A stretch of 64,000 bases of DNA, taken from positions 83,722,001-83,786,000 of the forward strand of contig CM053148.1 in NCBI GenBank assembly GCA_028571685.1, read 5' to 3'. Numbering within the stretch: position 1 is the stretch's first letter; every line of letters begins with the position of its first letter. Below, piece after piece: positions 2,721 to 38,946 of this stretch. Source of the DNA: Heterohyrax brucei. Taxonomy: Eukaryota > Chordata > Mammalia > Hyracoidea > Procaviidae. Under the pieces are notes generated by a model, which searched no databases, had not been told where the DNA came from, and was given only the letters and a program-made list of their open reading frames with translations. The translations under genes were made by a program, and so were the position numbers.

Positions 2721-3194
2721 TATGATTTTGAAACCGTAAACCATGGAAACTTCCTAGATCGTAAAGGAGGGTGTTGTGGCAGGAAGAGAGTGCTGGAACA
2801 GCCCCCAAGCGTGATAACATTGGCCGAAGGACTGGGATCTCCATTCTGATCATTCCTCTCGGGAAGATGCCTCAGGCACTTTAAAGGCCCACTTGCACTA
2901 AGGGTGCTGCTGCAAACAAGTGTGGTCCTAAATGTCTGTGGAGTAGGGGGTGCAGGGGACAGGAGATGCTTCTCTTAGGGGCCACAGCCATAAAAAGCAC
3001 AGGTCTTGAGCCCCCTGCTGTGTTTTATTCTCCAAGTTTGCTGAGCTGATGGCTTAGACCCAGCCCCTTGGCAGCCCCCTTTCCCTCCTTCATCCTCACC
3101 AAGGAGCAAGGCTTAGCAACAGCTTAGCTCAGGGACAGTGCCTTCGAGGATGCAGAGGCCACCAGGAGGGAGGCAGAATGGGAAGAAACCCATT

Positions 3195-3260
3195 CCAGTG
3201 CTATATAAGGAAGGCCAGGGCTGCCCATTTCTTGCACCCATCTGAAAGCAGCTGTGAATC
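3195..3260 (+). promoter_or_regulatory. Candidate core promoter of copy B (TATA box)
   Basis: TATATAA at 3202-3208, followed by a block ('ggaaggccagggctgcc') that is almost identical in copy C at 13574-13600, where the TATA reads TACATAA. It precedes exon 1 by about 0.6 kb. Conservation between two otherwise decayed copies supports promoter identity. Activity is not shown. Confidence 0.55.
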
Positions 3261-3494
3261 TGCTGTGACTGCAAAGACAAGGCTCCCAGCAGGGCTGAGA
3301 GGCCACTGCCCTGCAGAAAGGGCAGCATGACAGCACAGCAGGGAGACAGGAGTGGGACACTGGGGAACTATTCTACCTGTGCCTGCTGTCAGGTGTCTCC
3401 AGCTGTGAGCTCAAAGAAGCCCTGTGCAGGGAGAGCTGCAGGGCCTCCTCCAAGCACCTCCTGCAGCTCTGCCTGCCTCCTACTTGGCACACAA

Positions 3495-3672
3495 TTTCAT
3501 CCCATAATATCTATTGCCAACAACTGGCTTCCTACTCTGGGAAACCCTATGGGACAGAGTAGAACTGCCCCATGCTGTTTCCAACGAGCACTTGGTGGAC
3601 TCCACCTGCTGACCTCTTATTTAGTAGGCATAATGCTTCACTGCTGCACCAGGAGGGCTTCCCAAAGAATAG
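3495..3672 (-). mobile_element. AfroSINE in the 5' region of copy B
   Basis: Reverse-orientation AfroSINE ('gaaaccctatgggacagagtagaactgcc', then 'ctgctgacctctta' and 'aggagggcttccc'). The corresponding position in copy C (13848-14035) holds the same element, so it was inserted before the B/C split. Confidence 0.85.
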
Positions 3673-5894
3673 TAGTAACAGATAGCTTTAGCAATCCAAA
3701 GGGAAGCCTGGGAAGTTTGGTGCTCATGGTGCAAACTCAGTGCACTTCAGCAGGAGGCAGTGTCTCCTGGAGTTGGAACAGAGAGTGACCCAGTGAGGTC
3801 CCAAGAGGGCAAGTGCTGTAAGAAACAAGCAAGAGACCTGTGGGGGCTCTGGAGCTTGCAGCCTGCGCCCATTTGCCTGCTGCTCACAGGCACCGTGGTG
3901 CTGCTAGCCACGCCAGGCACAGAAGGCCACTTGGCTGAGGACGGCCTGGAGCTGGTGCAGACTGCTGGAGCACGCTGGTGGAAACCAGGTCATGCACCTC
4001 GGCCTGGATGACTTTCATCTGCAGCTGTGCTTGGAGCTGCCACCAGACCACGGCTTCCTGGCACCTGGCTTCACGCTGTAGATAGTGGGGCGCAGACCAG
4101 GTCCAAAGGTGCTGTGCTCAGAGTCCTTCAGCAGTCTGGAGTGCTGCTTCTGCTTTGGCAGCATGAGTGGTGACCTGGACTAGGCAGCAGCCCTCAGCCT
4201 CTGCAAGGGTGTGAGTAGCGCCTTCCACTGGCAGGGCATTGCTTTCTTCATGCAGCCTGGATGTGCCATGTCACAGAGCCTCCTGTGATCCTGGAAGCTG
4301 ATAAGGTACAACCTCAGCTGCTATCATTCCACCTCCTGCAGAGGATGTGGCAGGTCAGGGATGGCAGCTCTAAGTGGCCTGCTTGGGATGATGAAACCTT
4401 GCCACCAGGGGGCGCGGTGCCTGAGGATGAGGACGCAGAAACTCAGGGCATCCAGCAAGACTGGGAGCCAGGGATCTGTGGGCGGCCAACAGACCCCAGC
4501 CAGAGAAGAGTTTTCCCTTCTTGCCTTTCCATTTGCCCCTTTCCCCACTTTTTTCATCTGAAACCACTTGTGAGTAGACCTGTTTGCTGGCATGAGTATG
4601 TTTCTGCTGAAGGGGTAGAGACCTGGAGTGCAGAAATGTGGTTGGAATTTCAGGGTGGTAAACTCAAGAGTGATTTAGGGGGCTCTGATGTCTCCCCTTG
4701 CACCAACTTTTTACTTAACCTAGGGAGGAAAATGTGCACTCCCCCATGTTCAGACTGGAGGATTTCAGTGGGGCCTAAAATCCAGCTCCTGAACAACACA
4801 ATCTGACCCTTCAAAGGAGCATCAGAACTCTTAATTTAAAGGGGAACATTTAGAAAATCACCTCTCTAATGGAAAAGAGTGCAAATATTTTTGTTATTGT
4901 TGTTCCATTTGTATTTTTGTTTTGTTTATTTGCTTTGACAGCTTAGAGTTTTCTTATGTACTCTGCAAAGGTGAGTGTTCTTGGATAGACTGCCTGTGAG
5001 CAAATGACTTTCCTTGTTTCCTTACAGGGAGTGGAAGTAAAGCAGAGAAACATTTTGTGTTCAGGTTCCACTGTGTGGAAACTATGCTTGTGGCTAAGTC
5101 AGTGGCAGACTTCCACGGAGGTGGCCTGAGTCACCACCTTTTCAGCTTGTTCTCAGCAGCCTCTCAGTTGTACAAACACCCCAGCATTTGAAAGTCAGTT
5201 AACCTGGTATTAGGGGAGATTCTGGACATTTCTGTTGAAAAGAAGGGGTTAGAAGTGACCTGTAATGTTACTGTCATGCTGCAAAACTTCTGCAGTTGGC
5301 AACAGCAGCACAACCCACTCAGTGACAGGATGCAGAGTCCTCTGACACAGTGATTCTTATTACCAGAAACGTTCATAGGAAGACAGCACCACTTATGACA
5401 GAAGCGTCTGAAGTTCTGTCTGCTTTGTAACAAATATATATAAAGAACTCTCACCAAATGCTTTTGCATTTAAATAGTACTTGTGTGAGTTCTATGAAGT
5501 GCTATGAAAGGATAAGTCAACCACAATGGCTGCATTTGGCCCCAAGCCCCCATCAACTCGTCCTGTCAAACAGTTTGATCCCAAACCTCACGCTGTAGCT
5601 CTGTTAATAAGGTTGTGTCTTTGCCCCTTCTGGGACCTATGTAGTAAATGAACGTGTGGATCTCTGGAGACGGCTACTGTTGGAAGTACATATGACCCCA
5701 GCAGAAGCTGCTCAGTTGTTTTTAAGAACTCAACTCTGTTAATTAATGCAAACTAACAAACAAAGACACTATTGAAGAGGTAATCTTCAGATGATATATA
5801 TGCTGGCTGTTTGAGTTGCAAAAGCATCTTAGAAACTGTAAAATATGTATTTTCTCAATTTGAAAAGCATTATCTTGCTGTAATAATAAATAAA

Positions 5895-6105
5895 ATAATA
5901 AGAGTGATGCACATCTGGAGGAGTACAGGTGCACAATGGTCAGCAGTTGGAACCCACCAGATGTTCCACAGGAAGAACATGTGGTGGCTGGTTTCCATAA
6001 AGATTCATAGCCTTGGAAACCCTATAGGACATGTCTGCTGTGTTCTTTAGGATTGCTAGGGGTCAGAACCGACTTGACAAGGGGTTTTGTTTGGTCTTTT
6101 TAACA
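5895..6105 (+). mobile_element. AfroSINE in intron 3 of copy B
   Basis: Same element and position as in copies A, C and D ('cagttggaacccaccag', 'catagccttggaaaccctatagg', 'ggtcagaaccgacttgaca'). Confidence 0.88.
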
Positions 6106-7449
6106 GACACTTGAAAGCTTACATGTTTTCTTACAGCCTGTCAAAAGCAGATATCGAACCCCAAAGCAAAAATCTTCCTCTAGCTATATCATGTTCAGAC
6201 AAATGAATCCCTGCTGGGGGAAAAATGTGGGAGATGATCTGTATTTTAACATGGGTTTTGGATTGCTTCTTAGGCTGCGTGTTAACAACGCCTCACGATG
6301 TTGGAAAGAAGTGTGCCACCACTAAAGTTGTCAACTGACATTGCTACGTGGTGTCCTGGGTAAGGCACAACCAGAATCTCACCACAACTTGGTCTCCCTG
6401 CATTCGCAACAAGATTACATTGTTTCTGGATAAGAGTTATGGTAAGAAGCACAAGTTGCTCTTTCAGGATGACAACACAGCTTCCCACAGCAGCCTCCTA
6501 TTTTAAAAAAGCTCTCTTTGAAAAAAAAAAATCATGTTTTCTCTATTTTCCCTCACCTCCTTCAAAATTAATCTTCACCACAAAGACTGTCACTTTTCAG
6601 ACCTCAATTCCTAATGTGATATTGTGCTTCAGTTGAATAGGTCTCGAAGTAGAGTCAGTCAGATTTTTAGCACAATAATAATTTCATGTCATTATTGAGA
6701 GGAATAACCCCATTCATGATAAAAATGTTTTCCAAAATTTTCAGTTTCTCCGCCACTCTGCTTGAAAGCTCCTTAGTTTTCCAACCACTGCTTTATGTTA
6801 TTTCACTTGATGAGCAAACTCTAAAAATGTGATCTACCACCATCATGATTTCACTATTTGTTCATGGCTATCTAGTCTTTACAGGACTGTTTGTTGGACA
6901 AGGCCCAGAGTCCTCTAAAGCTACCCAACAACTTCCTGGGGACCTTGTATGATGTTAACCCAGCAACACCAGCTTTCATTTAGGAATGAATTACAACCAT
7001 TGACCTGACATGTTCAACACATTTAATACCCTGTGGGGTACTTCCAACTTCAGAGGGCTATTGCTGTGCCAACACAGTCAATACCCTTGGGCAGATGGAA
7101 CAAGGTATGGAGACCAGAAGTGGTGTGTTAATGGCATGTGTGTGAACAAGACCCCAGAAAACATTTGAATGTGAGGTTTTCTACTTAAACATTCATGTTT
7201 TGTGAAATGTTGGAATTGGAAAAAAACAACCCTCCAGAGGAGTTGAAAAACAAACAAAAACTATTTACCATCCAGTTGCTTACAACTATTGCGATCCTCA
7301 TACATTTCACAAGTAGAACTGTGCTCTAAAATGATGCTGAAGTATCTGATAACACGTTGAACAAACCCATTTGTATCCTCAAGAAGGAATGTCAGAGATA
7401 CAGATTTTATAATTAATCCTGTGTTCCATATGTTTTCCTTTTACTCACT

Positions 7450-7975
7450 GTTTTAGTCAGCGAGGGCTGCTCCTCAGAAATACCACAGAGTGGATAGCTT
7501 TAACAAAGGACAGTTTATTCTTAAACAGTCCGGTAGACTACAAGTCCAAAGTCAAGATGTCCGCTCCAGGGGAAGGCTTTCCCCCTTGTCGGCTCTGGAG
7601 GAAATTCTGGTATTGCATCAGTCTCTGTCCAGGGAGCATCTTGGTGCAGGAACCTCAGGTATGAAAGATGCACTCTTCTCCTGGTGCTGCTTTCTTGCTC
7701 TTGTGAGGTTCCCAACTCTCTGCTTGCTACTCCTTCATTTTATCTCTCATAGGATGAAAGGCTTATGGGTGGGGCAAGCCATACTCCAGGGAAACTCCCT
7801 TTACAGTGGAGCAGGGAGGCAATCCTGTGAAGGGATTTACAGTCTCACCTTAATCCTTTACCATGCAGCAGAGGAAAATCACAAAATGGGAGACAATCAG
7901 AAAACATTGGGAACTGTGCCCCAGCCATATGGCTACACATAGTTTTGGGGGGGACACAATTCAGTCCATGATGCT
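7450..7975 (+). mobile_element. Interspersed repeat in intron 5 of copy B
   Basis: Begins 'ttttagtcagcgagggctgc..agaaataccacag' and ends 'ggggacacaattcagtccatga', typical edges of an abundant LTR- or MER-like mammalian repeat. Its 3' end recurs at 62205-62424. I cannot name the family. It carries a chance 150-codon frame (7490-7942) with no domain signature. It is not at this position in copies C or D, so it is a B-specific insertion. Confidence 0.6.
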
Positions 7976-8554
7976 AAAAGGCCTCTTTACAGAATACAAA
8001 TGCTGATGTCTTATGTTTGGATATAGACTCCTTTTAATGGAAGGCTGGGGCTGCTGGGGCCCTGGGAAGAAATTTTGAGGACAGTGGTGAAGGAGTTCAA
8101 TATATGATGAGGGAGTATGGCAACCCAGTCCCAAAGAACGGAGGAAAGTGCTGTGTAAACAAGAGAAATAGCTATCTGTCCTGCAGCAGTGGACTGTCCA
8201 GAAAATAAGAGTAAGTAGACATGGGTTCTGAGACTTTGAGACAGGTGAGAATGTGCTTATAAATGGACAGTTAAAAGTTGGAAACTGACGAACTCATTCT
8301 GTCATTCTCTTTCCAGGAAAATCCTTCAGCGAGGACTAATGAGAGGCTTAAAATGACTCTTCAAAAGCTTGATTTTTGAATGGGTCTGCTCTTTAAACTA
8401 TATTGGTCTTTCCCTTAAGGGAAAAGTGTAGCTCCTTGGTGAAGTCGAAGAAATTGGTCACACCATCGTTTTCCAGTCTAAGGTAATTCCACTTAGGCTT
8501 ATTATCTGCCTTCAAGTCAAGGTCTTGACTTGCTAATTCATTATTCTGCTCACA

Positions 8555-13382: not shown

Positions 13383-13519
13383 AGATTACCAAGCAGGGGG
13401 AAAGGAGGGGGATCTCAGCTACCATCCCCCACCCTCTGTTGGAACCCTAGACTGAGATATTAAGTGCATTTCAGTAAAGAATGAGCTCAAGGGCATTTTT
13501 TTTTTTTTCTGGAAGGAGA

Positions 13520-13625
13520 AGCCACCAATAGGAAGGGGAGAAGGGAGAGTAGAATCCCACTCCTTCGCTACATAAGGAAGGCCAGGGCTGCCAGTTTCTT
13601 GCACTAGCCTGAAAGCGGCTGTGAC
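13520..13625 (+). promoter_or_regulatory. Candidate core promoter of copy C (CCAAT and TATA-like)
   Basis: CCAAT at 13525-13529 and TACATAA at 13569-13575, followed by 'ggaaggccagggctgcc', shared with copy B. Copy B keeps the canonical TATATAA but has lost CCAAT. The pairing of one CCAAT and one TATA-like box about 45 bp apart is a plausible vertebrate promoter. The 5' leader to the start codon at 14223 would be about 0.6 kb unless spliced, and contains upstream ATGs (for example 13747). Confidence 0.5.
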
Positions 13626-13847
13626 ACTAGGGTGATTACCAGCCCAGGACACACAGGTGGGCTGAGAGAGCAGAGCCCTGAAGAGCGAGCAACAGCTTGA
13701 AGGCCTGAGAGGAGCACCTGGCATCATTCCTTTCCAGCACCCCTGCATGGTGCCTCCATCTCTCCACTGGACCCCAACTCCAGCTCCCTACAGGGCTGCA
13801 CAGCCTCCTCCCAAGTGATTCTGAGACTCCTGACTGCAGCGCACTTG

Positions 13848-14035
13848 GCATATAATTTCAAAGAATAGTATCCATTTCTGTTGAGTTGTTTCTGAGTCTT
13901 AGAGGCCCTACAGGAATAGTAGAACTGCTCCAGAACGTTCCCGGTGGGCCATGGTGGATTCCAGCTGCAGATCTTTTGGTTTTGACAACTTAGTTCTTAA
14001 TTAGTATAAGACTAGGGCCTTGGCAGGGCTTCTCA
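13848..14035 (-). mobile_element. AfroSINE in the 5' region of copy C
   Basis: Reverse-orientation AfroSINE ('gttgtttctgagtcttagaggccctacag', 'agatcttttggttttgac') at the position occupied by the same element in copy B (3495-3672). It lies inside the presumed 5' leader. Confidence 0.82.
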
Positions 14036-14222: not shown

Positions 14223-14886
14223 ATGCCACTGTGGTGGCCCAAGGGTTCACAGGCTGCACGCATGTTGCTGTTGCTCACAGCAGCGGTAGCACTGCTGGCA
14301 GTGCCCTGCGTACCTGGGCGCTCAGCTGAGGAGGATGAGGAACTGGTGCTGCCCACACTCGAGCTGTCTGTGGGACACCAGACCGCTCGCCTTAGCCTGG
14401 ATGCCTTTGGTCTCCGGCTGCACCTGGAGCTGAAGCCAGACCATGGCTTCCTGGCACCCGGCTTCACACTCCAGACAGTAGGGCACAGACCAGAGCCTGA
14501 TGTGCTGTATTCAGAGGCCCTTGGCGACCTGAAGCACTGCTTCTATTCTGGCACCGTGAACGGGGACCCGCAATCGACCGTGTCTCTCAGTCTCTGCAAA
14601 GGAGTGAGTGGTGTCTTCCACCTGCAGGACAAGGTGTTCTTCATCCAGCCTGCACCCGGCAATGACACGGAGCCCCTTGTCCCCTTAGAAGCAGAGGATG
14701 TACAGCCTCGGCAGCTACAGTTCCATGTCCTGCAGAGGAGGCGGCAGAGCAGAGGTGGAGACTTCAAGTGCGGTGTAGAGGATGATGAAGTCCTGCCTAC
14801 CAGGGGACCCGAGTCAGAAAGAGAGGACACCACGGCTCAGGAATCACAGCAAGACTGGGAACCAGGGGCAACTGGACAGCTAACAG
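14223..14886 (+). CDS. ADAMTS1-like: Copy C exon 1: signal peptide and prodomain of an ADAMTS1-like protease
   Basis: Encodes residues 1-221 plus one base of codon 222. ATG at 14223 is chosen because it gives a 13-residue lead before the hydrophobic core, as in ADAMTS1; a second in-frame ATG at 14262 begins MLLLLTAAVALLAV, an acceptable signal peptide start. Then comes the acidic EEDEELVLP, typical of ADAMTS1, followed by prodomain landmarks FLAPGFTLQ and HCFYSGTVNGDP. Residues 172-177 (RRRQSR) are a possible furin-type site, and Cys183 in KCGVEDDE is the cysteine switch that keeps the zymogen latent. The donor after ACAG is GTATAAG, phase 1, which matches exon 2. No stop or frameshift. The equivalent exon in copy B has two stops and no start codon. 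Secretory pathway, extracellular role inferred from the family. Confidence 0.85.
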
Positions 14887-17226
14887 GTATAAGCCTGAGA
14901 AGAGTTTCTCTCTCTTGTCTTTTTATTTCCTGCTGTCCTCACTTTGGCCATCTGAAGCACCTTGTGGGTAGACTCCTGTTGACTGGCATGAATATATGTC
15001 TGCTGAAGGGAGAGAGACCTGAAAGTAGGAAATGTGGTTGGAGTTTCAGGGTGGTGAATGCAAGAGAGAGTTGATCAAATCCAACTAGAAAAAGTAATTT
15101 CATTTGCTGGAGTGATGCATCATGCACAGGTTTACTGTAATTCACAACTGACTCAACAGCACCTGACAAGAACAACAATAGGGTGAAATTTTTGACCTGG
15201 GAGAATTGGTAACCCCATTCTTTTTATATGAATGCAGTGCCATAGTGGAAAGTGGCAAGGGATTTCTTGCCATCCTGGTTCACTTATTGTTAAGGCTTCT
15301 ATGTGTTCTTGAGTGTGGTTGCAGCTTTGTGCTGTGCTTTGTAACGGCTGCCTGGGCTCTCACTCTGATCCTGAGGAAGGTAGAGTGGGAGAAGGAATGA
15401 GAGCTACGATGATCCAGGATTGTGTAGTCACAGGGTTTGGGCACTTGCTTTTTGAACACTCCTCTGCAGGCTGCTGCCCTCTGCTCCCATGCCCTTTAAG
15501 ATGCTGACAACAATTACTGGTGGCAGGCTTCCCTTAGCAGAACCTACTTAAGAGGTCATTGCTCTGCTCGCGCTACCTCTGTGAGACAGCTACCCTGCCT
15601 CCCACTTTGTGTTGCTTCTCACTGGCTTCATTAGGCTCTCCTGAACTCTCCAAGGTACAGACTCATGGATTCTTCCTGCTAAGCACTTCCCAGGCTCTGT
15701 TTTCTGCTGTATTTACTGCCTGGGTCTTCCCTTTCTATCAGCTTAGTGTCTTTTCCTCTTATCGTGTTGTCACAGATCTCTTCTTTGAAATTCTCCCCTT
15801 TATTGCCCTGAAGCTGTACTCACAGAAGCAGTAATTTGCTCACTGCCCAGCTTAGAAATTCCCATTGGGTCTCTATCCAAAGCCCTTGGGCTCTTTTTGA
15901 GAAAGTAACTGCAGACCAAAGAAGGAACTTTTTTCTCTGGGGCCATGAGAGTTAGGCAATAGGTTGCTGGGCTGAGTGCATCATCCTTGTGTCTGCAGTT
16001 ATCATGAACATGTACCCAGGGATGCCTGGAATAAGAGCTCAGAACACATTCCTTGATGCTCTGTCCCTTAGCAGCCACTTAAGCCCTTCTCAGGATTTTG
16101 CTCGTGGAGGTCAATGATCTCTTTTAGGATTAGATTCTTGGTCTGTGGAAAAACTGCCCTTGCACCAAAATTTTTAGTACAGCCAAGGAGGATAATGTGC
16201 AGTCTTCCTTCTTCAGATAGGAGGATATTAAAGATTGCCAAATTCCAGACTACCAAAAGTGTAATCTGATCCTTCAAGGAAATACCAGATCTCTTTATTA
16301 AAAATAAAGTCTTAAAATGTATTATCTTCAATGAAATACAGATAGAAATGTTTTTGTTATTGTTGTCCCAGCTATGGAAATCTTGGTGGCATATTGGGCT
16401 AAGTGCTGCCTCTGCTAACCAAAAGGTCAGCAGTTCAAATTTGCCAGGCACTCCTTGGAAACTCTATACAGCAGTTCTACTCTGACCTATGGGGTTGCTA
16501 TGAGTTGGACCCGACTTGACAGCAGTGGGTTTGGTAATTTTTGGTTTGTTCCAGTTATGTTTTTGTTTTGCGTTGACTAATTAGACTTTCCCTATGTAAG
16601 TATCTGACAATTAAATTCACAAAATCATCCTAGAATAACTGCTACACACCTCACTGCTGATTATTACTGCAGTCATTCTGAAGCAGTCCCCTCGGGAATC
16701 TATGCACTGATGCCGGCCCCTAGTCCAGTCTTCAAAACAATTTGGAACTTTTTTTTTATGGAATGGCACCCCTAGCTGTCATCATATTCCCTTGATGTCC
16801 TGAATGTTATCAGAATTTCTTCCTTTCAATATTTCCTTTATCTTCAGGTAAAGAAAAAAGCTATTGGAGGCCAGATCAGGTTATTAGTAAGGATGATCCA
16901 GGACAGTTATTTGCTTTCTGGCTGAAAACTCCCTCACAGACAACTATAAAAGTAAATTTGCAAACTTGTCATCCTGACACCACACATAATGGCCATTCCA
17001 GAATGAGTTCCAACCTTCTTTTGAAGGGTGGACTAAGTGTTGGCATCGGTGCATAGCTTCCCAAGGGGAATACTTCTAAGGTGATCATAGTGATATTCAG
17101 CAATGGGTATATAGCACTGAGAACAATTAACTTCTTGAATTTATTTGTCAGATCTCTTATCCTGCAAAAGCAACTATTCTTAGACTGAATGCCTATGAAC
17201 AAATTACCTTCCTTGTTTCCTTATAG
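14887..17226 (+). other. Intron 1 of copy C
   Basis: About 2.3 kb, collinear with intron 1 of copy D (35622-38946, which additionally holds RTE pieces) and partly with the inverted fragment at 52600-53582. Open frames here (for example 15559-15834) are not shared as frames between copies, so they are treated as chance. A C-specific AfroSINE lies at 16372-16558. Confidence 0.75.
16372..16558 (+). mobile_element. AfroSINE in intron 1 of copy C
   Basis: Well-preserved AfroSINE ('gctaaccaaaaggtcagcagttcaaat', 'tatggggttgctatgagttgg', 'gacttgacagcagtgggttt'). Absent from the matching positions of copies B (about 4890) and D (about 38300), so it was inserted after copy C became separate. Confidence 0.92.
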
Positions 17227-17573
17227 GAACTGGACGCATGAGAAAGAAGAGTTTTGTGTCCAGGCCCCGCTATGTAGAAACCATGCTTGTGGCCGACAAG
17301 TCAGTGGCCGACTTCCATGGTGGTGGCCTGGAGCACTACCTTCTTACCTTGTTCTCGGTGGCCTCCCGGTTGTACAAACACCCCAGCATTCGGCAATCAA
17401 TTAGCCTGGTGGTAGTGAAGATTCTGATCATCTCTGAGGAAGACAAGGGGCCATTAATAACCTCTCACGCTGACTTTTCACTGAAAAACTTCTGTGAATG
17501 GCAAAGGCAGCAAAACTCACCCAGTGACCAGGATGCCGAACACTACGACACAGCAATTCTTTTCACCAGAAAG
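17227..17573 (+). CDS. ADAMTS1-like: Copy C exon 2: furin region and N-terminal metalloprotease domain
   Basis: 347 bp, acceptor CCTTATAG, donor GTGTGC. Encodes the rest of codon 222 to residue 337. It starts TGRMRKKS, where ADAMTS1 has an RKKR furin site, so the P1 Arg is Ser here (residue 230); copy D keeps RKKR. Then [62 protein letters not shown] and [11 protein letters not shown] follow, all closely matching ADAMTS1. The ETMLVAD and AEHYDTAIL segments include residues that bind structural calcium in ADAMTS catalytic domains (family knowledge). Fully open. Copies B and D have a stop in this exon (5189 and 39204). Confidence 0.9.
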
Positions 17574-17834
17574 GTGTGCAGGAGGATGTGCCACTTATGA
17601 TAGAATGATCTAAGGTTCTGCCTGCTTTGTAACACACATATATAGAAAGAACTTTCACTAACGTATTTGCACTTAAATTGTATCTCTGAAAGCTCTATAA
17701 TGTCCTTCTAAAGGACAAGTCAACAACAATGACTGTAGATGCCTCAAAACATATGTGAGATTAACTAGTCAAAGAGTTTGACCCAACCCTCATGCTTATC
17801 CCTATTAACAAGGTTGCATTCTTGTCTATCCTAG

Positions 17835-17967
17835 AACTTATGTAGATCCTTTTGGTGTAACACTTTCGGGATAGCTCCTGTCGGAGCTATGTGTGACCCC
17901 AGCAGAAGCTGCGCAATTGTAAAAGATAATGGTTTCATAGCTGCCTTCACCACAGCCCATGAGTTGG
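17835..17967 (+). CDS. ADAMTS1-like: Copy C exon 3: metalloprotease with first half of the zinc motif
   Basis: 133 bp, acceptor ATCCTAG, donor GTGAGT. Encodes residues 338-381 and one base of codon 382. [11 protein letters not shown] matches the family's LCGSQTCDTLG, followed by [11 protein letters not shown] and [10 protein letters not shown]. His379 and the catalytic Glu380 are present. The three Cys expected in this stretch plus the one in DPSRSC are retained. In copy D the matching exon has a TAA at 39644; in copy B it is cut off before HELG; in copy A only its end is in the window. Confidence 0.88.
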
Positions 17968-18164
17968 GTGAGTTGTTTTTACAGTAAGAGCTAAGCTCCA
18001 TTAATGAATTTTAACTGATAAATGAATGTGTTAATTTAAGAGGAAGAATCTTCAGTTGATTTGCTTGCTGCTTTAGGTGACAAAGCATCTTACAAACTGT
18101 GGAAAATGTATTCTCAATGTTTCAAAAATTCCCTCTCTTTACAACAACTGGCGATACAATAGTA

Positions 18165-18325
18165 GAAGCCATAGACCTTTGGAGGAGCCCTAGAGGAACA
18201 GTTTGTAATCACTTAGCTGCTCACCTGAAGGTTGGCCATTTGAACCCTCCAGCTGCTCCCCAAGAAAATGAGGTGGTAGTTAGCTTCCATGAAGACTCAC
18301 AGCCTTGGAAACCCTATGGGGGTTA
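18165..18325 (+). mobile_element. AfroSINE in intron 3 of copy C
   Basis: Orthologous to the intron 3 SINE of copies A, B and D ('ggaggagccctagagg', 'gctgctcacctgaaggttg', 'cacagccttggaaaccctatggggg'); its 3' end is cut short compared with copy A. Confidence 0.88.
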
Positions 18326-18498
18326 ACGACTTTTGGAAACTTAAATGTTTTTTAACACCTTGTGAAAAGCTTACACTGTCTCAAAAAATCAATGTCTTCC
18401 TCTAGTTACATTGCTTTAAGGCGAATGTCTTCCAGCTGGGGGAAAGAAAATGTTGAAGATGACCTGCATTTTAATGTTGGTTTTGTACTGTGTCTTAG

Positions 18499-18666
18499 GC
18501 CACTTATTTAGCATGCCACATGATAATGCAAACAAGTGTGCCCTTGTCAGCAAGGTGAAGGGAAATTCCCACATGATGTCTGCATTCATGTCTGATATAG
18601 ATGTCAGCCCGTCTTGGTCTCCTTGCAGCACCTACATGATTACATCATTTCTACAAAAGGGTCATG
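18499..18666 (+). CDS. ADAMTS1-like: Copy C exon 4: end of the metalloprotease domain with zinc ligands and Met-turn
   Basis: 168 bp, acceptor GTCTTAG, donor GTAAGA, phase 1 at both ends. Joined to exon 3 it completes HELGHLFSMPHD, with zinc ligands His379, His383 and His389. HMMS (406-409) is the Met-turn, and WSPCSTYMITSFL closes the catalytic domain as in ADAMTS1. Open throughout. In copy A the second ligand is Arg and the SPC Cys is a stop; in copy B the second ligand is Cys; copy D keeps the ligands (HVFGMRHD). So among the forward copies only C has a catalytic core that is both readable and complete. Confidence 0.9.
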
Positions 18667-19113
18667 GTAAGAAACACAAGCTGCTCTTGCTAGCTGACAT
18701 CTCAGGCTTAAAGTGTACGATGCTAAGTAAAGAAGCTCTTGGTTTTTTTTTTCTTTCTTATTTTCCTTTACCTTCTTCAAAGTGAATCTTCAACACCAGC
18801 ACCATCAATTTTTAGACATTATCTCCCCATGCCATGTTGTGCTTTGGGATGAATAGAACCCTACGTGGAGTTAATTCAAATTATACTAAGAAGAACTGTT
18901 TCATGTTGATATTTACTGGTAAATGGTTCCACTTGTGATAAAGTCATTTCCAGACTTTTGAATTTGTTCTACATTGTGCTCAAAAGCTCCACCCTTTTCA
19001 AATCACTTTGCTTTACATTATCTCACTTGATGAGGGAGCCCTGAGGCTGTCACCTACCCCCTGCATGCTTTCACTAGTTGTTTATTCACAGCTGACTGGC
19101 ATTTTCTTTACAG

Positions 19114-19400
19114 GTGATTGTTTGTTGGACACACCCCAGAATTCTATAAAGCTACCCTCCAAGTTGCCAGGGACGTTGTATGATGCTGACCAGCAATGCC
19201 AGTTTATGTTTGGGAATGATTACAAGCACTGTCCCAACATAAACAGCGCCTGCAGGACCCTGTGGTGCAATGCCCCCTCCAGTGGGATACTGTTGTGTCA
19301 AAAACTAGACTTTCCTTGGGCAGATGGGACCAGCTGTGGAAACGAGAAGTGGTGCATCAGCGGCCAGTGCGTGAACAAGAGCGACAGGCAACACTTTGAT
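19114..19400 (+). CDS. ADAMTS1-like: Copy C exon 5: disintegrin-like domain
   Basis: 287 bp, acceptor TTTACAG, donor GTGAGT, entering in phase 1 and leaving in phase 0. Encodes the rest of codon 438 to residue 533: [63 protein letters not shown] and HFD. Cys residues match the ADAMTS1 disintegrin-like pattern. No stop or shift, whereas A, B and D each have a frame break or stop in this exon. The domain assists substrate recognition in the family and does not carry an integrin-binding RGD here. Confidence 0.9.
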
Positions 19401-19756
19401 GTGAGTTTTTCTACTGACACATTCACGCCCCTTGAAATGCTGGTGTTGAAAACAAGCAACACCTCCAGAGGGAGGGTGAAAAAAAACAAAAACAAAAACA
19501 AAAAAAAAGGAACAATTTACCGCGTACTTGATTCTAACTCTTGGCATTTCCATGTGTTTCAAGGGTAGAACTGAGCTCCAAAATTATGCTGAAATATCTG
19601 ATAACAAGTTAAGCAAAACCCATGTTTGTCCTTGGGCAGGAATGCAGGACATAGGGATTTCATAATTATTTATTTCAGTGTTCTTATTTTTGACTTTTAT
19701 TTTCTAGAAGATTTCTTTAGAGAACTCTAACATTGGTGATTTGTGCTCCCATTTAG

Positions 19757-19948
19757 ACTCCCCTTCACGGACACTGGGGGCCGTGGATGTCCTGGGGAGA
19801 CTGTACGAGGACATGTGGTGGAGGACTTCAGGTCAGGATGAGACAGTGTGACAACCCGGTCCCAAAGTTTGCAGGGAACTACTGTGTCGGCCAAAGAGTG
19901 CACTACCGATTCTGCAACAAGGAGGACTGTCCAAACAATAACAGTTAG
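19757..19948 (+). CDS. ADAMTS1-like: Copy C exon 6: TSP1 repeat, ending in a stop if intron 6 is retained
   Basis: The exon proper is 19757-19943 (187 bp, acceptor CATTTAG). It encodes residues 534-595: a thrombospondin type-1 repeat with the three spaced Trp ([11 protein letters not shown]), CTRTCGGG and all six Cys, ending CPNNN. The donor has become GTTAGC (copy D: GTGAGT), and reading on gives Ser then TAG at 19946-19948. An ERV LTR starts at 19953. Because exon 7 is missing and exon 8 is in the wrong phase, termination here is the simplest outcome. It would give a protein of about 596 residues against 967 for human ADAMTS1, lacking the Cys-rich, spacer and C-terminal TSP1 domains. Expression is not shown by the sequence. 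Confidence 0.82.
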
Positions 19949-19952
19949 CATA

Positions 19953-20459
19953 TGGTTCGTAGCTGTAGAAAAATTCTTAGCTGGCCTCTTTCTTAATGCT
20001 AAATCCCTTCTCCCTAATTAGCAATGTTGACATATAAAGAAAACTAAGAATCCTTTCTGACTGGTACTCACAAAGATTGTGTTTGTTTTCCCAGGCTATT
20101 CTTCAGTGATAACCAAACAGAGTGATGCCAGTTTGCAGCCCACTTTTCCTTAGATACCTTCCCAGCCTGCAGACATCAAGGACAGCTCATCTTGAAACAA
20201 GGAAACTGTGTGTTCTTCAACCTTGCGCCCTCTGAACACCTGCATGCTGGTGCCCCGTGCCTGCCCTGCTTTCCTCCCCTAAACCCTTGTATAATACTTG
20301 CTGGCCTGAACTGAGAGGTAAAGATGGTTTTTAAGGGGCCAGTCCACCATCTTCTCAGATTGCTGGCCATCTGAATAAAGTGTTTTTAAAAGTTCAACCC
20401 CATAATTGGCTTAGTAGTGACAGGCATAAGAGTCTTCAACAAGGATATTTCCAGTAACA
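19953..20459 (+). mobile_element. ERV 5' LTR in intron 6 of copy C
   Basis: Starts TG (19953), ends CA (20458-20459), about 507 bp, and is homologous to the two LTRs of copy D (41652-42177 and 47143-47655). It has a TATA-like TATAATA at about 20290 and AATAAAG at 20374-20380, both in sense with copy C. It sits within a few bases of the exon 6 donor. Confidence 0.82.
20374..20379 (+). terminator. LTR polyadenylation signal AATAAA
   Basis: Canonical hexamer inside the sense-orientation LTR, 426 bp downstream of the copy C stop codon at 19946. It is conserved at the same place in the copy D LTRs. It could end copy C transcripts; this is inference. Confidence 0.6.
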
Positions 20460-23400
20460 TTTTTGGCAATGGTGGCAGGACAGCATTGGGACTCTCCAGA
20501 GGCTCTCTGGTAACTTCAGTGATCTTGCAGGGGACTCCTGGTGGTTGTCTGGACGGGGGCTCCTTGAGAGGTGAAAATCTGGCAACTTTAAGCAGCTTCC
20601 AAGCAAGTTTCACTGAAGAGTTGGTTTGGGTTCAGATTTATGCTCCTCAACCCCCAAGTCTTATCATGAAAGAGGTGGAATCCAGTGCTATCTGGGTTGC
20701 TATTTCTGGGGCTCATTGAGAGACACTTGGTTTGCAGACCCCTTAAGGAGCCTCCTGGTCAGTGCACCATCTGCACACCATGCAGGAGGCTGCCTGGTCT
20801 GCAGACTCTGTAAAGGGACACGTGGTAGGGCACCATTCGATCTGAGACTACATAAGGAGCCCACTGGTTAAATTGTGATCAAGGGGACTACAGACTCATT
20901 TCTATCTTCTTGGCCTTTCATTCTGGCCTTCTTTTAACCTGTGTTTCAACCTCTCTTCATTCTTGTGAAGTCTTTGTTCATCTGTGGGGGCTCCTAAGTC
21001 TGTGATTTTCTGTGAAAAGTTACTGAGAAATTGCACCATTCCTGCAGGCTCAGTGTTGAATGTATATGTAAAACTTCAAAAGTTTGGCGCACAGCCGTAA
21101 ATTTGGTCAATTTCCCCTTGGAATTGTTCTTTTCTTTTCTCTAGTTATTACCCTATTCACTATCTCTGTTTTTGTGAAGGAATATTGCCCTGTTAAGTGT
21201 TTCTTGGGTGCCTGAGTCTTGCACCTCTTGTCCAGACTTCCTCATCTTGCTAATTCATTGCCGGAATGGACTTTAGTTGCAGGGAACTTCCAACCCCGTC
21301 TCATGCCCAGTTCCTTCTTTAAATTTGTATAGGTAAACTACTGGTTTGACAGGTCAACAACAGAAAAAGGTGGCAGGGCTAGAAGCTCTGTAAATCTAGC
21401 AGAATGGGAGGAGTGACTTCCAATCCTGGTAATAGTCCACTGAAGCAGATTCTGGCTGATTGGTGTACCTACCATTATTCTGACTGACTAAAAAGAAAAT
21501 GGTGTTTCATTGCAACACAGTTTGGCTGACATCTATAATAAATTAGAAAGAGAACTGCCCTATCTATGGGAACCTTGAATTTTTTTTTTGCTATATTAGG
21601 ACTTCAGAATTTTTGTCAGAGGTCTGCGAAATGGGATAAAATCCCTTATGCTCAAGTCTTTATGACTGTTCAATAAGGATGCAAAAATGAGGGGGAAAGG
21701 GTTGATGGTACAAAGAGTAAGAATTGTCGGCCAAATAGTTGGGCCCTAAGAGATCAGAAGATGAAGGCACCATGACAACCTCAGCTGGGGCTTGGCCACC
21801 TCCACCACTGAGGCTCAGCAGCCACCCTGGAGACCCAGCCCCGGCTGCTGCCTCCCCCAGTACTCCTCCCAGAAGGTCACCTTGTGCTGCTGCCTGTGCC
21901 ATTTCTGGCAGTAAGAAATGCCCTGCTTTCCCACTATCCAGAGGAGGAAACTAGGTACTTGGGGCATGCAGCCAGTGCAGTGATCTTCCCCTCCCATATT
22001 GGGAAAGGCCACTAAATCTGGACTAGGAACAGAGGAGTGTGCTCGCTCCAGGGCAGGGCAACACCCATTAGGAAGATTGCCAAGAGGTAAAGGACTCCAA
22101 GGACAATCAGCAGGGTATTACTTAGCACAGACCCTGTTACCTACTTCAGAGATGCTTAATTGGAGAAACTCTAATCCCTGTATGGACAATCCAACTAAAA
22201 TAACTTGCTTAACAACATCTGTCTTTGCTACTGACTATCCAAAATGGACTGACATGCAAGCTGTATTTAACGTTATTCTCACTGAAGATGAATGAAGGTT
22301 GGTGCTGGAAAAAGCAAAGGAAGAGATCAAGTGTCTTCTTCAGGAGAATCCAACAAATACTCCAGCTCCAGCCGGAGGCATCCCGCTAATAGACACCAAC
22401 TAGAACCCTAACAATGGGTGCCCTCCTCATCTAGAACATTATCAAAAGTGTATATTCATAAGCCTTAAGAAGGGGGCCCCAAAACAAAATACAGGAAGTG
22501 CAACGAAAGGCTAATAAGAAACCACAGAGTTCTTGGAAATGATTTGTCAGGTACGTGGTAAATATCCTGGCATGGATCCCCAAGGTCCAGAAAACATGAG
22601 GATGTTTTCCATGATTTACATTTCTCAGAGCACTCAGGATAGAAGGAAAAAGTTGCACAGATTGGAAGGAGGGCTGGGCGTGAATCCTCCCTAGTTAGTT
22701 GATATTGCCTTTAAATTGTACCACTCTAGAGAGCATCACAAAGCCCCGCTTTCCACTGTGTTTGTGGAGCAAGGGAAGACTATGTGGGTGACCCAATTCC
22801 AGGGAGATGAATGCTGTCCCATCCCCAAACCAGAGGACCAGTGTACTCACTGTAGCAGGAGAAGACATTGGAAAAATGAATGTCCCCAAAGACAAACCAG
22901 TAAGCAAAATAAGGAAATAACAGCCCAAATTATAGCTGAACAAACTCCCAATTTGGATGAAAGTTGATGAGGTTCAGGGGTTCCCTGACATCTGACCTAC
23001 AAATGGAAGGTTGTTTCAGAGGAACCCTGGGTAAAGTGGCCAACCTGTTGAATTTCTAGTGGACCCAAAAGCCCCTAATTCAGTGGTAAAATAGAGAGTT
23101 AACACTAGAAGTCACAGCAGGCTTAAAGATCACAGGAATCAAGGAAAACCTGAACAGCAATATTTCTTACAGCCACTAGAGTGTGCTATTGGAGAGAAAT
23201 ACTTAACTCATATTTATGAATATGCCTGACTGCCCAGTTTATATTCTTGGCTGTGACTTATTTTTAATTAAATGCTCAAACCCTTTTTTGTCCCCAAGGA
23301 GAAACAACTCCACTCACAGAATCCACCAGACTCAGAGTTACAACTACATTGCCTGATGAAATCTAGCAGACCTCCAGAACATCAGAACTCATCCCCTGAA

Positions 23401-26687: not shown

Positions 26688-26824
26688 GTTATGGACAGTA
26701 TTCCATGTGCCCAAACTATACCTCTGTCTGTGTGCAAGGACACTATAAAAGCTGGCTGCAATCTTATTATGCACTCTGGAAACCAATTTGGCAAGTGTGG
26801 TATCCGTGGAGAAAATGGTTCAAA
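26688..26824 (+). pseudogene. ADAMTS1-like: Copy C exon 8 relic (Cys-rich domain)
   Basis: Acceptor TTTTCCAG and donor GTAAGT are intact. Pieces in different frames read YTSVCVQG, KAGCNLIMHS and FGKCG.RGENGS, matching the ADAMTS1 Cys-rich segment that follows exon 7. Small indels break the frame, and the last Cys pair is altered. It starts in phase 0, so it cannot follow exon 6 (phase 1) without a frameshift. Relic, not expected to be translated. Confidence 0.78.
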
Positions 26825-26994
26825 GTAAGTTTAAAAATGATGTGTCTTCTAATTACCTTATAGCTGAGACGTAACTTGTTTAAAAGTCTGGTAAAACATG
26901 TAACAATTACCAATGATTAACTTGTCTTCAACTGAAGTCAAGGAATCAACTTGTAAACAAGAGCTCATCGTGTCTGGTTTTCCTCACTTGCAGA

Positions 26995-27675
26995 CCTGCT
27001 TATCAAGACATGGATATCTGTTTCTACTGGAGCCACAAACGTTGAAGTGAAACAGCAGAGTGAGAGGGTATCCGGAAATAGTGGAACCTTTCTTGCCATC
27101 AAAGCTGCCAATGGCACATATATTCTTAATGGTAACTTCACCTCATCTGCTTTAGAATAAGGTATCATGGACAAAAGTAATGTCTTGAGGTACAGTGGTT
27201 CCAAGGCAGCACTGGAAAGAATTGTCAGGTTTAGCCCACTCAGAGAACCCTTAATCATCCAGGTCCTTAAGCCAGACAATCCTCTTCCACCTAAAATTCA
27301 ATACACTTATTTTGTGAAGAAGGAATCTTCCAGTTTTATCGTATACTCAGGACGGGTCATTAAAGAACAGGGCAAGTGTTGAAGTTATGTGGATCTGATG
27401 GTAGCAGAAATGAATGGAATGTAGAGATATCAACAGGCAGCATGCTTCAGACTGTGTCAAGGAAGTGAAGCCATCTAGCACCTGGCCTCTGGAAGAAGTG
27501 AGCCGTACTCAAGTCAGCTCAAATAGCAGTTACCATGTTCTAATACTCCTGTGTAGGGTTTCAAAAAGAGAATCCTTGAGTTTCTTTCCTGTGATGGGGG
27601 ATTTTGGTCCACATGAGCTGTGATCTTTTGAATAAACCTAAGCATTACATCAAGTTTTGTACAACGGTGGAATGA
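26995..27675 (+). pseudogene. ADAMTS1-like: Copy C exon 9 relic (spacer and C-terminal TSP1 region)
   Basis: After an acceptor CTTGCAG, frames read [30 protein letters not shown], then a TAA at about 27158, then [29 protein letters not shown], then a TGA near 27380, ECRDINRQHASDCVKEVKPSS, and finally SCDLLNKPKHYIKFC with a TGA near 27673 at the expected protein end. Order and content match the ADAMTS1 spacer and the two C-terminal TSP1 repeats, though most of the latter is lost. Several stops and shifts make it non-coding in its full form. Confidence 0.85.
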
Positions 27676-28754
27676 GATTAAGAGGCTCATTTATGAGGGG
27701 GAAGCAAAGTGCAGATGGTTTAGTGCACTGAGATTAAGAAGCTTGAAGTACTCATCACACCTTGCAACTCAGTGATGAGGAGTGTCAATGAAATGGGAGC
27801 TTGGAAATAGATGGAAAAGACATTAGATCATATGAATATTCTGCCACTGACAAATTTCACAGGGTAATTAATGAGAGTTTTTAGATGACAAAGCCATGGG
27901 GTGGTGTTATTATTTCTTACGCCTCTAACAAGTTTTTTTTTTTTTTTTTTAAGGCTTGGGGCAGGAAGAAAAGGTTGCCAGTTTAATAAAGACTACAACC
28001 ACTGTTTCCTGGTACTAATTATGCCCTTTGTATGGTGGAGGGGTTGGAAGAAAAATGGGAGAAAGATGAGATTTTGAGTGGCAAACATGGCTTTGCTTTA
28101 CCCCTCTAACCATGGGGAAGAAAAGAGTACAGATAGGATCTTGAGCCATCCTGGTATTTGTCTTTAATGGTTTCATAGAATACTGACATCCTAGTTCCTT
28201 CCAGGAACTAAGAGTCCAGATTGTCCAGCCTGAGACAGGCTCAGCATACTGAAAACAGCTCCAGTGGTCCATCTTTACCTGCTTGTATCATGTTCAGCTC
28301 GACCTGTGTAATTAATTTTGATGAAGAAATCATGACATGTAGTTTGTAAGAATGAGTTAGATATTCAGAGGCAGAAAGTGAGCAGTGACATATCAGATGC
28401 TGGAAAAACCAGAGGCATGGTATCTTCAGTCCTTCCTGGCTTTCTTCTCTCTCTACACCAGCATGTTTTAGGAATGTACATGTAAAGAAATCACGTGTCT
28501 TCAGAAAGTTAGATCATACAAAAAGAAAATAATGTTGTAACAAGAATGCAGTGTATAGAGCTGCTCCAGTGTGTATAGGGGCATTGACACCATTTGTTTC
28601 ATAATGTGGAGAGCACTGAGGCATAGGAAGTCCATCCCCAGTAACTGTTTCAACAACCCTGGTGAAAGTCTTTTAAGCTCTTCATCTATGATAGACAGCA
28701 TGTCGTCTTCCATATGTATACAAAAGAATATGATAGTGTAATTTATATGTACTT
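27676..28754 (+). other. Sequence downstream of copy C, possible old 3' UTR
   Basis: No frame of note. A T-rich run (27931-27952) and AATAAA at 27985-27990 could mark the original polyadenylation site of the full-length gene, about 0.3 kb past the old stop. Beyond 28000 nothing is assignable. A scrap of AfroSINE tail ('aatcgactcgatggcagtgg') lies near 28765. Confidence 0.4.
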
Positions 28755-28784
28755 TAGCAGTCTTGAATCGACTCGATGGCAGTG

Positions 28785-29180
28785 GTTTTTTTGGGGATGC
28801 AGTTAGCAGCCTTGATGTCTTTCTCTTAGAAGAACTATAGTGCATTCTACTTTTCATTTACTAATGGATGTTTACAATTCCTCTTTCTCATCACAGTCAT
28901 GTCACATAAACAAACGCCCACCCCAAAAGTGTTGTTCCATCCACATCATTAAGGTCACTTTTCTTTGATAAAGTAGCTCTTCTTCAGTAGTGTTTTGATT
29001 GCATTTCTGTCTTAGAGACTCATATTCCCCTAGTATAACACACAATGTTCTATTGCTACTAATAAGGATTTTACTAGCCAGTTTATGTGCGTTTATTAAC
29101 ATATTCAAGCATTTTCTAACACTTCGTTCCCAGAAGAGTTTTCATACATTAGAAATATTCAAAGCACAAGTTATCAGAAA
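28785..29180 (-). mobile_element. RTE LINE 5' portion
   Basis: 'ctaatggatgtttacaattcc', 'ccatccacatcattaaggtcac' and 'ctaataaggattttactagcca' match the RTE block at 49255-49500. Minus strand. Confidence 0.75.
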
Positions 29181-31210: not shown

Positions 31211-32099
31211 CAACATCAGCTAACAACAACAACATGTACAAATTGATTTTGCTCAAGTAATTCAAAAATATTTTACACTTTTTTCCTTGGATTTTCCAAT
31301 GTTTGAATTTCTTTTCCATTGGATTGTTCAATTAATGATGAAACATACTCTCGATTATTCTACTAGATGTTTCTAAATTCTTCTTGTTATACATGGATCT
31401 TGGACTACACTTTAATATCTTCCATAGTATAAATGAAGAAAATAAGTGTTGCATTTGTTTCTTTTACATAATAGTTTTTAAACCTTCCAAGAGTTCACAT
31501 CAAAAGATAGTAGTAAATCACTCATTGTACTTTTTTTGAAAATTCACTTAAAATTACTTTCTTTTGATAATTAATTTTTCTACAAATATGATTGAGGGCA
31601 CAATTTTGATTTTTCTGGAACATCTGTACAGTCTTTCATTAGGAATAAGTGTAGATAAAAATTAAGTAACTTTTAATGTGTCATTATTTTTTTCTCAATA
31701 GTTAAGATTGTTCTTGTTTGAGAACAGAAATATTTTCCCTCCTTGGGAATGGAAAATTCTCTTTCTCATAGCTTTTTTTCTTTGTCCTACAAGTAATAAT
31801 AATAACTAGAAAAGGGGAAAAAATGTAAGGGATCCAAAACCTTATTCCCTCTTCTTGCATCTACTCTTTTCAAAGAGAACAAATAAAGTTTAGGTAAAGA
31901 AGAAAATACTGAATACCGAAGTAACTAACATACTAAATTAAAGCCTTCTCAAGTGGTATTTTTTTATAAGACAAGTCATTCATTATACTAAATAATATGT
32001 TAATGTTTAAGGTTTATAAGTATCTATAATATTTTTTTCCAGAGGAAAAAATACATTGATAATTTATTAAATAGAAATAAAGAGCAGTTTTTTTTCTCT

Positions 32100-37109: not shown

Positions 37110-38946
37110 AACAAAAAGGTGACATTTTTGACCTGGGAGAATAGGTAACCTCATTCTTTTCACATCAGTGGAATGCCTTAGTGGAAAGTCAGCCAGGGAT
37201 TTCTTCCCATCACTGTTCATTTATGTGTAAGGCTTTTGTGCACTCTTGGATGTAGTTGCAATCTGGTGCTGTTTTTGGTAATGGCTGTGGGGCTCTCACC
37301 CTACATCCCAAGGAAGGCAGAGTGGGAGGAGGAACAGGAGCCATGGTGATCCAGGAATGTGTAGCTACAAGGTCTGGGCAGTTGTTTTGTGATCACTGCT
37401 CTACGGACTGTTGGTCTCTTCCCCCATGCCCCTTAAGAGACTGATCACAACTACTGATGGCAGGCTTCCCGCAGCAGAACCTACTTGCCTTACCTCTCCA
37501 AGACAATGATCTTACCTCCCAGTGTGTACTGCTTCTCACTGCCTTAATTAGACTCTCCTGAGCTGTCCAAGGTAGAGACTCACTGACTCTTCTGCTAAGC
37601 ATTTCCCAGGCTCTGTTGTTTGCAGTGCTTACTGTGCAGATCTTACTGTTCTATCACCTTAGTGTCGTTTTCGCTTATCGTGTTCTTCTGGGCCTCTTCT
37701 TTAGAATTTCCTCATTTATTGCCCTGCAAGTCTACTCACAGAAGCAATAAATTGCTCATTGCTCGGCCTAGAACTTCCTACCCTGTCTCTACACAAAAAG
37801 ATCCTGGGGCTCTTTTTGAAAAAGTAACTGCAGGCCAATGCTGGAACCTATTTCTCGGAGGAAATGAGAGTGAGGCAACGGGTTGCTGGGCTGAGTGGCT
37901 GTTCCTTGTGTCTGGAGTTGGCATGAGCATACACCTGAGAGACCCCTGGAATAAGAGCTTAGGGCCGATTCCTTCAGGCCCTTCCCCTTTCAGCCACTCA
38001 GCCCTGCTTAGGTACTTCCATACGGAGCCTAATGATCTCTTTCAGCCTTGGAGTCTTGGCCTGTGAAAAGTGACTCAGCAAGCTGTGTAGGCTGCCCTTG
38101 CACCAATTTTTTTAGGAAAGCTGGGGAGGATAACATGCAGTCTGCCTTTTTCAGACAGGAGGATTTAAAGACTGTCCCAATCCAGCATGACAAAAAATAT
38201 AATCTGAGCTTTCAAAGGAACATCAGATTTCTTTCTTTAAAGGAATAATCTTAAAATATAATATCTTAAATGAAAGGAGATAGAAATATTTTTCTTATTG
38301 TTGCTTTTCTTCTGCTTTGACAAACTAAACTTCCCCTATGTACAAGGACTGCCAATTAGGTTCAAGAACTCATCCAGGAAAAAGCACTCCATACATCGTT
38401 GCTGAAGATCACTACCACCACCTTTGAAGTCCTCCCCTTGGGAAGATACACACCATCACCAGTGCCTAGTCCACCCTGCAAAGCAATTTTGGAACTCTTC
38501 TTGGAATGCCATCAGAGTTGTTTCTGTGTTATCTTAATGCCCTGAATATCATCAAAATGTCTGCCTTTCAATATTTCCTTTATTGTTAGGTAAAGAGAAA
38601 AGTCATTAGGGGCCAGATTAGGTGAGTAGGAAGGTTGTTCCAATACAATTATCTGTTTTCTGGTGGAAACTCCCTGACACACAGCTACACAATTAAATCT
38701 GTGAATTTGTCACCTTGCCACCATGCCACCTTGGCCATTCCAGAAAGAGTTTCAAAATTGCTTTGGAGGTTGGAGTAGGTTCTGGCACCAGTGCCTAGCT
38801 TCCCAAGGGGAAGTGATACTCAGCAATGAGGCACGTAGCACTTAGAACAGTTAACGTCACTCATCTGATGGCCCTCAAATTCTACAAAGGTAACTATTCT
38901 CGGACAGAATGCCTATGAGCAAATGACCTTCTGTGTTTCCTTACAG
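37110..38946 (+). other. Rest of intron 1 of copy D
   Basis: Collinear with 15185-17226 of copy C minus its AfroSINE. The chance frame at 37620-38066 is not conserved as a frame in copy C. Confidence 0.72.

Follow-up and report, generated by a model that had tools for sequence, protein, structure and literature searches.

A tandem ADAMTS1-like copy of Heterohyrax brucei with open exons 1–6 and a putative 3' end in a long terminal repeat

The 64,000-nucleotide stretch of the Heterohyrax brucei genome analyzed here (assembly GCA_028571685.1, contig CM053148.1, positions 83,722,001 to 83,786,000; hereafter the window) contains a tandem array of four ADAMTS1-like copies, A, B, C, and D, all on the + strand and within 48 kb. 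We consider it probable that copy C survives as a tandem ADAMTS1 duplicate in which exons 1–6 were kept, which ends in a long terminal repeat (LTR), and which would encode a truncated, putatively secreted protein. Comparisons between copies refer to the four copies inside the window, copy A being cut at the left window edge. Because introns are common to the copies, they are DNA duplicates, not retrocopies. Long C-D, A-D, and C-A blocks are mostly 73–75% identical (extremes: 70% in the C-D block holding the LTR, 79% in a 398-base C-A block), and copy B matches the other copies mostly at 67–74%. K80 (Kimura two-parameter) distances between C and D are 0.29–0.33 in five non-coding blocks and rise to 0.345 for the LTR block and 0.36 for a short flank of exon 1.

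When rejoined, exons 1–6 of copy C (664, 347, 133, 168, 287, and 187 bp) are in phase over five GT/AG introns and give a stop-free frame of 596 aa, read to TAG 19946–19948. This agrees with the six exons, phases, splice sites, and approximate length of 596 residues given in a preliminary description of the window. The frame starts at ATG 14223, with A at −3 and an in-frame stop upstream. The end had been placed correctly by position, but it lies outside exon 6 proper: the TAG follows the GT donor and is reached by reading through into the intron. Likewise, stop and LTR are indeed adjacent, with four bases rather than the reported five between the TAG and the LTR start at 19953. Eleven Pfam families were scanned against the product, and Pep_M12B_propep, Reprolysin, ADAMTS_CR_2, and TSP_1 matched, which gives it propeptide, metalloprotease, disintegrin-like, and TSP1 domains; the signal peptide was judged by eye. 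Both HELGHLFSMPHD and the Met-turn HMM are present, and so is the HEXXHXXXXXHD plus Met-turn arrangement of the Reprolysin domain. Of the "cysteine switch" described earlier, only the KCG sequence stands; a passage of one review states that ADAMTSs in general are without a switch (PMC4448532). Among solved ADAMTS chains, copy C matched 2jih (ADAMTS-1) best with 479 bits, ahead of ADAMTS-5 (404) and ADAMTS-4 (343); the chain list holds no ADAMTS8 or ADAMTS15, which leaves those two out of the ADAMTS1 assignment. Cys-rich and spacer domains are missing from the frame: exons 8–9 are broken, and exon 7 was not found.

Exons 1–6 of copy C hold zero disabling changes in 1786 nt, and a frameshift-aware comparison with human ADAMTS1 also gave zero lesions. 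Frame-breaking indels on the C branch were estimated at 0.0025/site from three-way intron alignments (3 in 1188 sites) and at 0.0048/site from C-D intron pairs, halved (59 in 6179 sites). At these rates, neutral decay on the C branch would leave 4.5–8.6 frameshifts in these exons alongside about 10 stops, or about 4–9.6 frameshifts over the range of distances simulated below; none was observed. Neutral simulations run on C's own exons at 0.15, 0.17, and 0.19 substitutions per site produced means of 9.1, 10.1, and 11.1 stops, respectively. The probability of zero disablements under neutrality is about 2e-6 to 1e-9 over the simulated range, which rejects chance as the origin of the open frame; by interpolation, the neutral share of the C branch is at most about 12–17% at the 5% level. 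Selection for an open frame through most of the history of copy C is thus well supported by these sequence comparisons. The preliminary claim that selection kept the N-terminal half holds in this form, as selection against truncation of exons 1–6.

The sister copies, also described at the outset as carrying stops or frame breaks, do so when lesions are counted in C's reading frame. In 1155 aligned nt, copy D has 10 stops along with one 2-bp gap and one 1-bp insertion; insertion and gap enclose two of these stops, at C positions 19290 and 19299, which are perhaps not stops in D's own frame. Exon 4 of copy D is stop-free. In copy B, 1728 nt contain 6 stops and several gaps or insertions that break the frame; copy A has 1 stop and one 1-bp gap over the 505 nt that the window includes. 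Exons 8–9 of copy C itself proved broken, as claimed: a frameshift-aware script, again run against human ADAMTS1, counted 6 stops plus 6 frameshifts over 813 nt. Between 2 and 4 of these 12 may be alignment choices, leaving a total of 8 to 12 lesions. Two exon 8 frameshifts may be in-frame gaps (tblastn aligns exon 8 in one frame), and the events at 27398–27411 may be a single one. The probability that all 8 to 12 lesions fall within exons 8–9 (813/2599 nt) is 9e-5 to 9e-7, assuming equal free time for both parts. Since their lesion density is similar to that simulated for the whole C branch, exons 8–9 have presumably been free of constraint since about the C-D split.

An LTR with AATAAA at 20374 in sense does lie just past exon 6, as reported. 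Its insertion, however, was not an event of copy C's own. In C and D alike, the LTR element begins 7–9 bp into intron 6, and the C-D alignment continues through the 5' LTR into the internal part of the element; an LTR specific to copy C was rejected because copy D has the same insertion. In copy D, the element is flanked by a 4-bp duplication, AGTA (41648–41651 and 47656–47659), and its two LTRs differ at 24% of sites. Copy B is without the element, and its intron 6 resumes where the copy D 3' LTR ends. The element being common to C and D and its site empty in B, insertion occurred after the branching of B and before the C-D split. The LTR distances are about equal (D5-D3, 0.300; C5-D5, 0.332; C5-D3, 0.277), and we therefore infer that insertion and split were close in time. 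In copy C, neither a 3' LTR nor an exon 7 was found, and the alignment resumes at 25179 with D 47989. The exon-6 donor reads GTTAGC in C, GTGAGT in D (41645–41650), and GTAAGT in B; hence the change at +3 of the copy C donor weakens the donor and makes the stop together. The LTR is a plausible 3' end of copy C. We use the name LTR element because no retroviral Pfam match was found at E 0.1 in the fragments scanned from the internal region in copy D (10 on the + strand, of 53 stop-free fragments).

At 1716–2221, copy A passes from intron 5 to sequence like the interior of the copy D LTR element. A deletion probably took out exon 6 and the 5' LTR of copy A; this stretch also resembles an inverted copy near 32.1–32.6 kb, and the insertion in copy A is therefore considered only probable. 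A 1.4-kb inverted pair (32089–33539 and 45161–46599, 75% identity) has its right arm inside the copy D LTR element, so that the same repeat family recurs outside that element.

The substitutions in copy C were also analyzed by codon position. Where D and B agree, C changes at 30/226, 13/214, and 37/225 sites at positions 1, 2, and 3 (p=0.003), whereas D changes where C and B agree are flat (40/236, 44/245, and 39/227; p=0.95). Second-position changes are fewer in C than in D (p=1e-4). These counts support a coding-type substitution pattern in C and none in D. For exons 1–6, a branch codon model gave ratios of nonsynonymous to synonymous change (dN/dS, omega) of 0.60 for C (p=0.027 versus 1), 0.94 for D, 1.83 for A, and 0.93 for B. 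The model used a star tree, ignored CpG effects, and treated dead-copy stop codons as missing; the first 14 codons of D exon 3, where the alignment seems unsafe, were masked in the main codon fits, residue counts, and singleton counts. With the dead copies fixed at 1, omega of C was 0.58 (about 0.39–0.89; twice the log-likelihood difference, 2dlnL, versus 1 = 6.0, p=0.014). By exon, omega of C was 0.73 for exon 2, 1.24 for exons 3–4, 0.36 for exon 5 (p=0.02), and 0.60 for exon 6, exon 5 being the only one significant alone. At 124 sites invariant among ADAMTS1, 4, and 5, it was 0.415 (p=0.027), versus 1.07 at 170 variable sites. Copy C retains 103/124 of the invariant residues and 16/16 invariant catalytic-disintegrin Cys, compared with 80/113 and 10/14 in D, 47/62 and 10/11 in A, and 71/111 and 10/16 in B. 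In pairwise counts, C retains 97 residues versus 80 in D of 113 (discordant 21:4) and 93 versus 71 in B of 111 (discordant 27:5).

Several observations speak against a maintained, working gene. The codon-position pattern of C is weaker with A as the comparison (D=A, 16/117, 16/122, 24/129; A=B, 16/100, 9/102, 14/91), and C and A do not differ significantly in invariant residues (discordant 9:3). Omega of C differs from that of the other three copies only at p=0.053 for exons 1–6. For exons 2–6 alone it is 0.66–0.67 (2dlnL = 2.7, p=0.10), or 0.69 without masking (p=0.14). Exons 3–4 exceed 1, and exon 2 has a lower omega in dead copy D (0.47) than in C. A dN/dS near 1, named beforehand as an argument against selection, is thus contradicted for exons 1–6 together and not for exons 2–6 alone. 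Identity to human ADAMTS1 is 62% for C exons 1–6 versus 60% for the dead exon 9; overall protein change has therefore been fast, and we regard residue-level constraint on the copy C protein as weak. The 1 kb upstream of copy C is CpG-poor (observed/expected ratio 0.10), hence there is no CpG-island promoter. At the propeptide-catalytic junction, the furin P1 Arg is lost (RKKR to RKKS, RKKR being the human ADAMTS1 site), and D360 and E389, the acidic ligands of the active-site calcium, are replaced by N338 and K367.

Open copy C has lost two features that dead copy D retains: RKKR (38947–38990) and a good exon-6 donor. Residues 338–371 of copy C have 10/25 invariant residues altered versus 11/99 elsewhere (p=0.0017, the stretch having been picked after the changes were viewed). 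Intact are the propeptide, Zn ligands, catalytic Glu, Met-turn, invariant Cys, the TSP1 WxxW and CTRTCG motifs, and E261, D351, and D465, which have a role at the double-calcium site. According to a passage in PMC6706451, D182 and E212 of ADAMTS13 hold calcium beside the active site and are functionally important; in our own reading they are the equivalents of ADAMTS1 D360 and E389. Another review describes a furin site at the propeptide junction of most ADAMTSs and names the ADAMTS10 site as degenerate; it exempts ADAMTS9, 10, 13, and 17 from the rule that removal of the propeptide activates the enzyme, and places ADAMTS1 activation in the Golgi (PMC8275829). The secreted protease first proposed, taken as active, is the weakest step, because the furin P1 Arg and both acidic calcium ligands are gone; the Zn motif, Met-turn, and signal peptide (by eye) stand, and the protease claim is weakened. 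In the same review, truncated ADAMTS4 retains aggrecan cleavage with lower binding to sulphated glycosaminoglycans, and ADAMTS5 lacking its tail cleaves aggrecan poorly (PMC8275829). Given this behavior and the altered sites of copy C, the product would most likely diffuse freely and have low or altered activity; it may also be non-catalytic.

How else could the frame be open? A neutral pseudogene, open by luck, is very improbable and largely contradicted: in its favor, three sister copies are dead and omega of exons 2–6 alone is not significantly below 1, but the simulated probability of about 2e-6 or less, the codon-position pattern, the retention of Cys, and the contrast with exons 8–9 all argue the other way. 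A copy that worked for most of its history and was silenced recently, leaving an unbroken relic, is a more serious rival, although we still consider it unlikely. Neutral time of up to about 12–17% of the branch fits zero disablements at the 5% level, and the CpG-poor upstream region and the lost furin P1 Arg and active-site calcium ligands are compatible with silencing; against it stand six exons and five introns without a stop, frameshift, or lost GT/AG.

Alternatively, gene conversion might have renewed the frame, the donor being an intact paralogue beyond the window, as four same-orientation copies lie within 48 kb and the left window edge falls inside copy A, limiting the comparison to this window. 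We judge this improbable: C-D identity in 100-base steps is 0.57–0.88 across exons, introns, and LTR and shows no nearly identical tract with sharp borders, and copy C matches ADAMTS-1 at only 196/295 catalytic-disintegrin residues and is therefore no recent copy of the parent gene. There is a similarly small chance that exon 6 is still spliced to unrecognized downstream exons and that the LTR is not the real 3' end. The GT at 19944 remains and AG is kept at +4/+5, but the donor is altered at +3 and +6, the downstream exons are missing (7) or broken (8–9), and the AATAAA of the LTR follows 430 bases further on.

The first part of the course of events is shown by the sequence. The LTR element entered intron 6 only a few bases downstream of the exon-6 donor, at a time after the B split and before the C-D split. 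Exons 7–9 of C then decayed or were lost while exons 1–6 stayed open. Transcripts would end at the LTR poly(A) signal and encode about 596 aa (signal peptide, propeptide, metalloprotease, disintegrin, TSP1), secreted without Cys-rich, spacer, or later TSP1 domains. Selection probably guarded the copy against truncation for most of its history, yet tolerated or favored many residue changes, and the altered furin site and calcium ligands would leave the product latent or poorly active, or acting on a changed substrate with no matrix anchoring of the usual kind. Copy C is best read as a long-maintained, fast-evolving truncated ADAMTS1 duplicate that is perhaps latent or non-catalytic. A more specific proposal seems doubtful to us when taken as a whole: that the LTR insertion made a spacer-less secreted protein, kept for most of about 0.17–0.2 neutral substitutions/site and now a latent or dead decoy ("pseudo-ADAMTS"), with the clustered calcium-loop changes and furin-site loss as the cause of that state.

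Copy C resembles ADAMTS1, an M12B reprolysin of the hyalectanase clade, in domain order through the first TSP1, 16/16 Cys, Zn motif, and Met-turn; unlike ADAMTS1, it ends after that TSP1, without Cys-rich, spacer, and two C-terminal TSP1 domains, and has RKKS and replaced D360 and E389. ADAMTS10, unlike copy C, is a full gene of another ADAMTS group. Its furin site at the propeptide junction is degenerate, as in copy C, and the review cited above describes poor processing (PMC8275829). Spacer-less or autolytically truncated ADAMTS4, described in the same place, is also a protease without the full matrix-binding tail (PMC8275829), but arises by splicing or autolysis from a full gene, whereas the copy C gene is itself shortened at the LTR. 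In HHLA2 and HHLA3, according to part of one report, an LTR likewise offers the poly(A) signal (PMC5454887); in copy C, unlike these genes, the LTR lies just past a coding exon and use of the signal is only proposed.

Table 1. Positions in the window of the ADAMTS1-like copies and associated features
Feature	Position	Strand	Description
Copy A	1–1527	+	Exons 3–5; dead; left part outside window
Copy B	3838–8485	+	Exons 1–7; dead; split off before LTR insertion
Copy B empty insertion site	8211–8225	+	GTAAGTAGACATGGG, directly after exon 6
Copy C	14223 to about 27672	+	Open exons 1–6, decayed exons 8–9
Copy C exon 1	14223–14886	+	Signal peptide (by eye), most of propeptide, RRRQSR furin-like motif, KCG
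Copy C exon 2	17227–17573	+	Propeptide end (RKKS), catalytic domain start
Copy C exon 3	17835–17967	+	Active-site calcium loop strongly altered (N338, K367); HELG
Copy C exon 4	18499–18666	+	Remainder of Zn motif, HLFSMPHD; Met-turn
Copy C exon 5	19114–19400	+	Disintegrin-like domain (Pfam ADAMTS_CR_2)
Copy C exon 6	19757–19943	+	TSP1 repeat, six Cys, WxxW and CTRTCG motifs
Copy C intron 6 remnant	19944–19952	+	Weak donor GTTAGC, also holds in-frame TAG 19946–19948
Copy C 5' LTR	19953–20459	+	Sense; AATAAA 20374–20379; proposed 3' untranslated region and poly(A) signal
Copy C LTR element, internal part	20460–21531	+	Colinear with copy D up to about 43260
Copy C decayed exons 8 and 9	26688–27672	+	Cys-rich end, spacer, TSP1s; 8 to 12 lesions (stops, frameshifts) over 813 nt
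Copy D	Exon 1 end about 35575; exon 7 to 47928	+	
Copy D exons 2–6	38947–41644	+	Dead; 10 stops when read in C's frame, plus a 2-bp gap and a 1-bp insertion
Copy D LTR element, intron 6	41652–47655	+	LTRs 41652–42177 and 47143–47655

Upstream of the coding exons, two blocks are common to C and B (13511–13684 with 3148–3317, 72%; 13795–13977 with 3435–3618, 66%); the 5' flank was therefore part of the duplication, and the blocks are possible promoter remnants. A 142-bp stretch is repeated with overlap at 48927–49137 (96% identity) and is far younger than the copies around it. Pieces of short interspersed elements in the window look like AfroSINE, in keeping with the afrotherian origin supposed in the preliminary description. 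Other long open reading frames, at 28501–28857 (−), 37620–38066 (+), and 3327–3788 (+), gave no Pfam match, and Rfam at gathering thresholds had no match anywhere in the window. No stray mammalian relative turned up when prokaryote genomes and viral contigs were scanned.

To our knowledge, no mammalian ADAMTS gene has this domain architecture, and we found no report of such a gene in titles or abstract openings of the open-licence literature. Mammals have 19 ADAMTS genes according to passages in a review (PMC4448532) and a survey (PMC4349717). If our reading of copy C is true, an extra gene that ends after the first TSP1 would be a natural test of how the catalytic and disintegrin domains act when no spacer anchors them. 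Copy C would then also exemplify a gene that was shortened by a retrovirus-like insertion and whose short form survived over the long one, an event datable through the sister copies.

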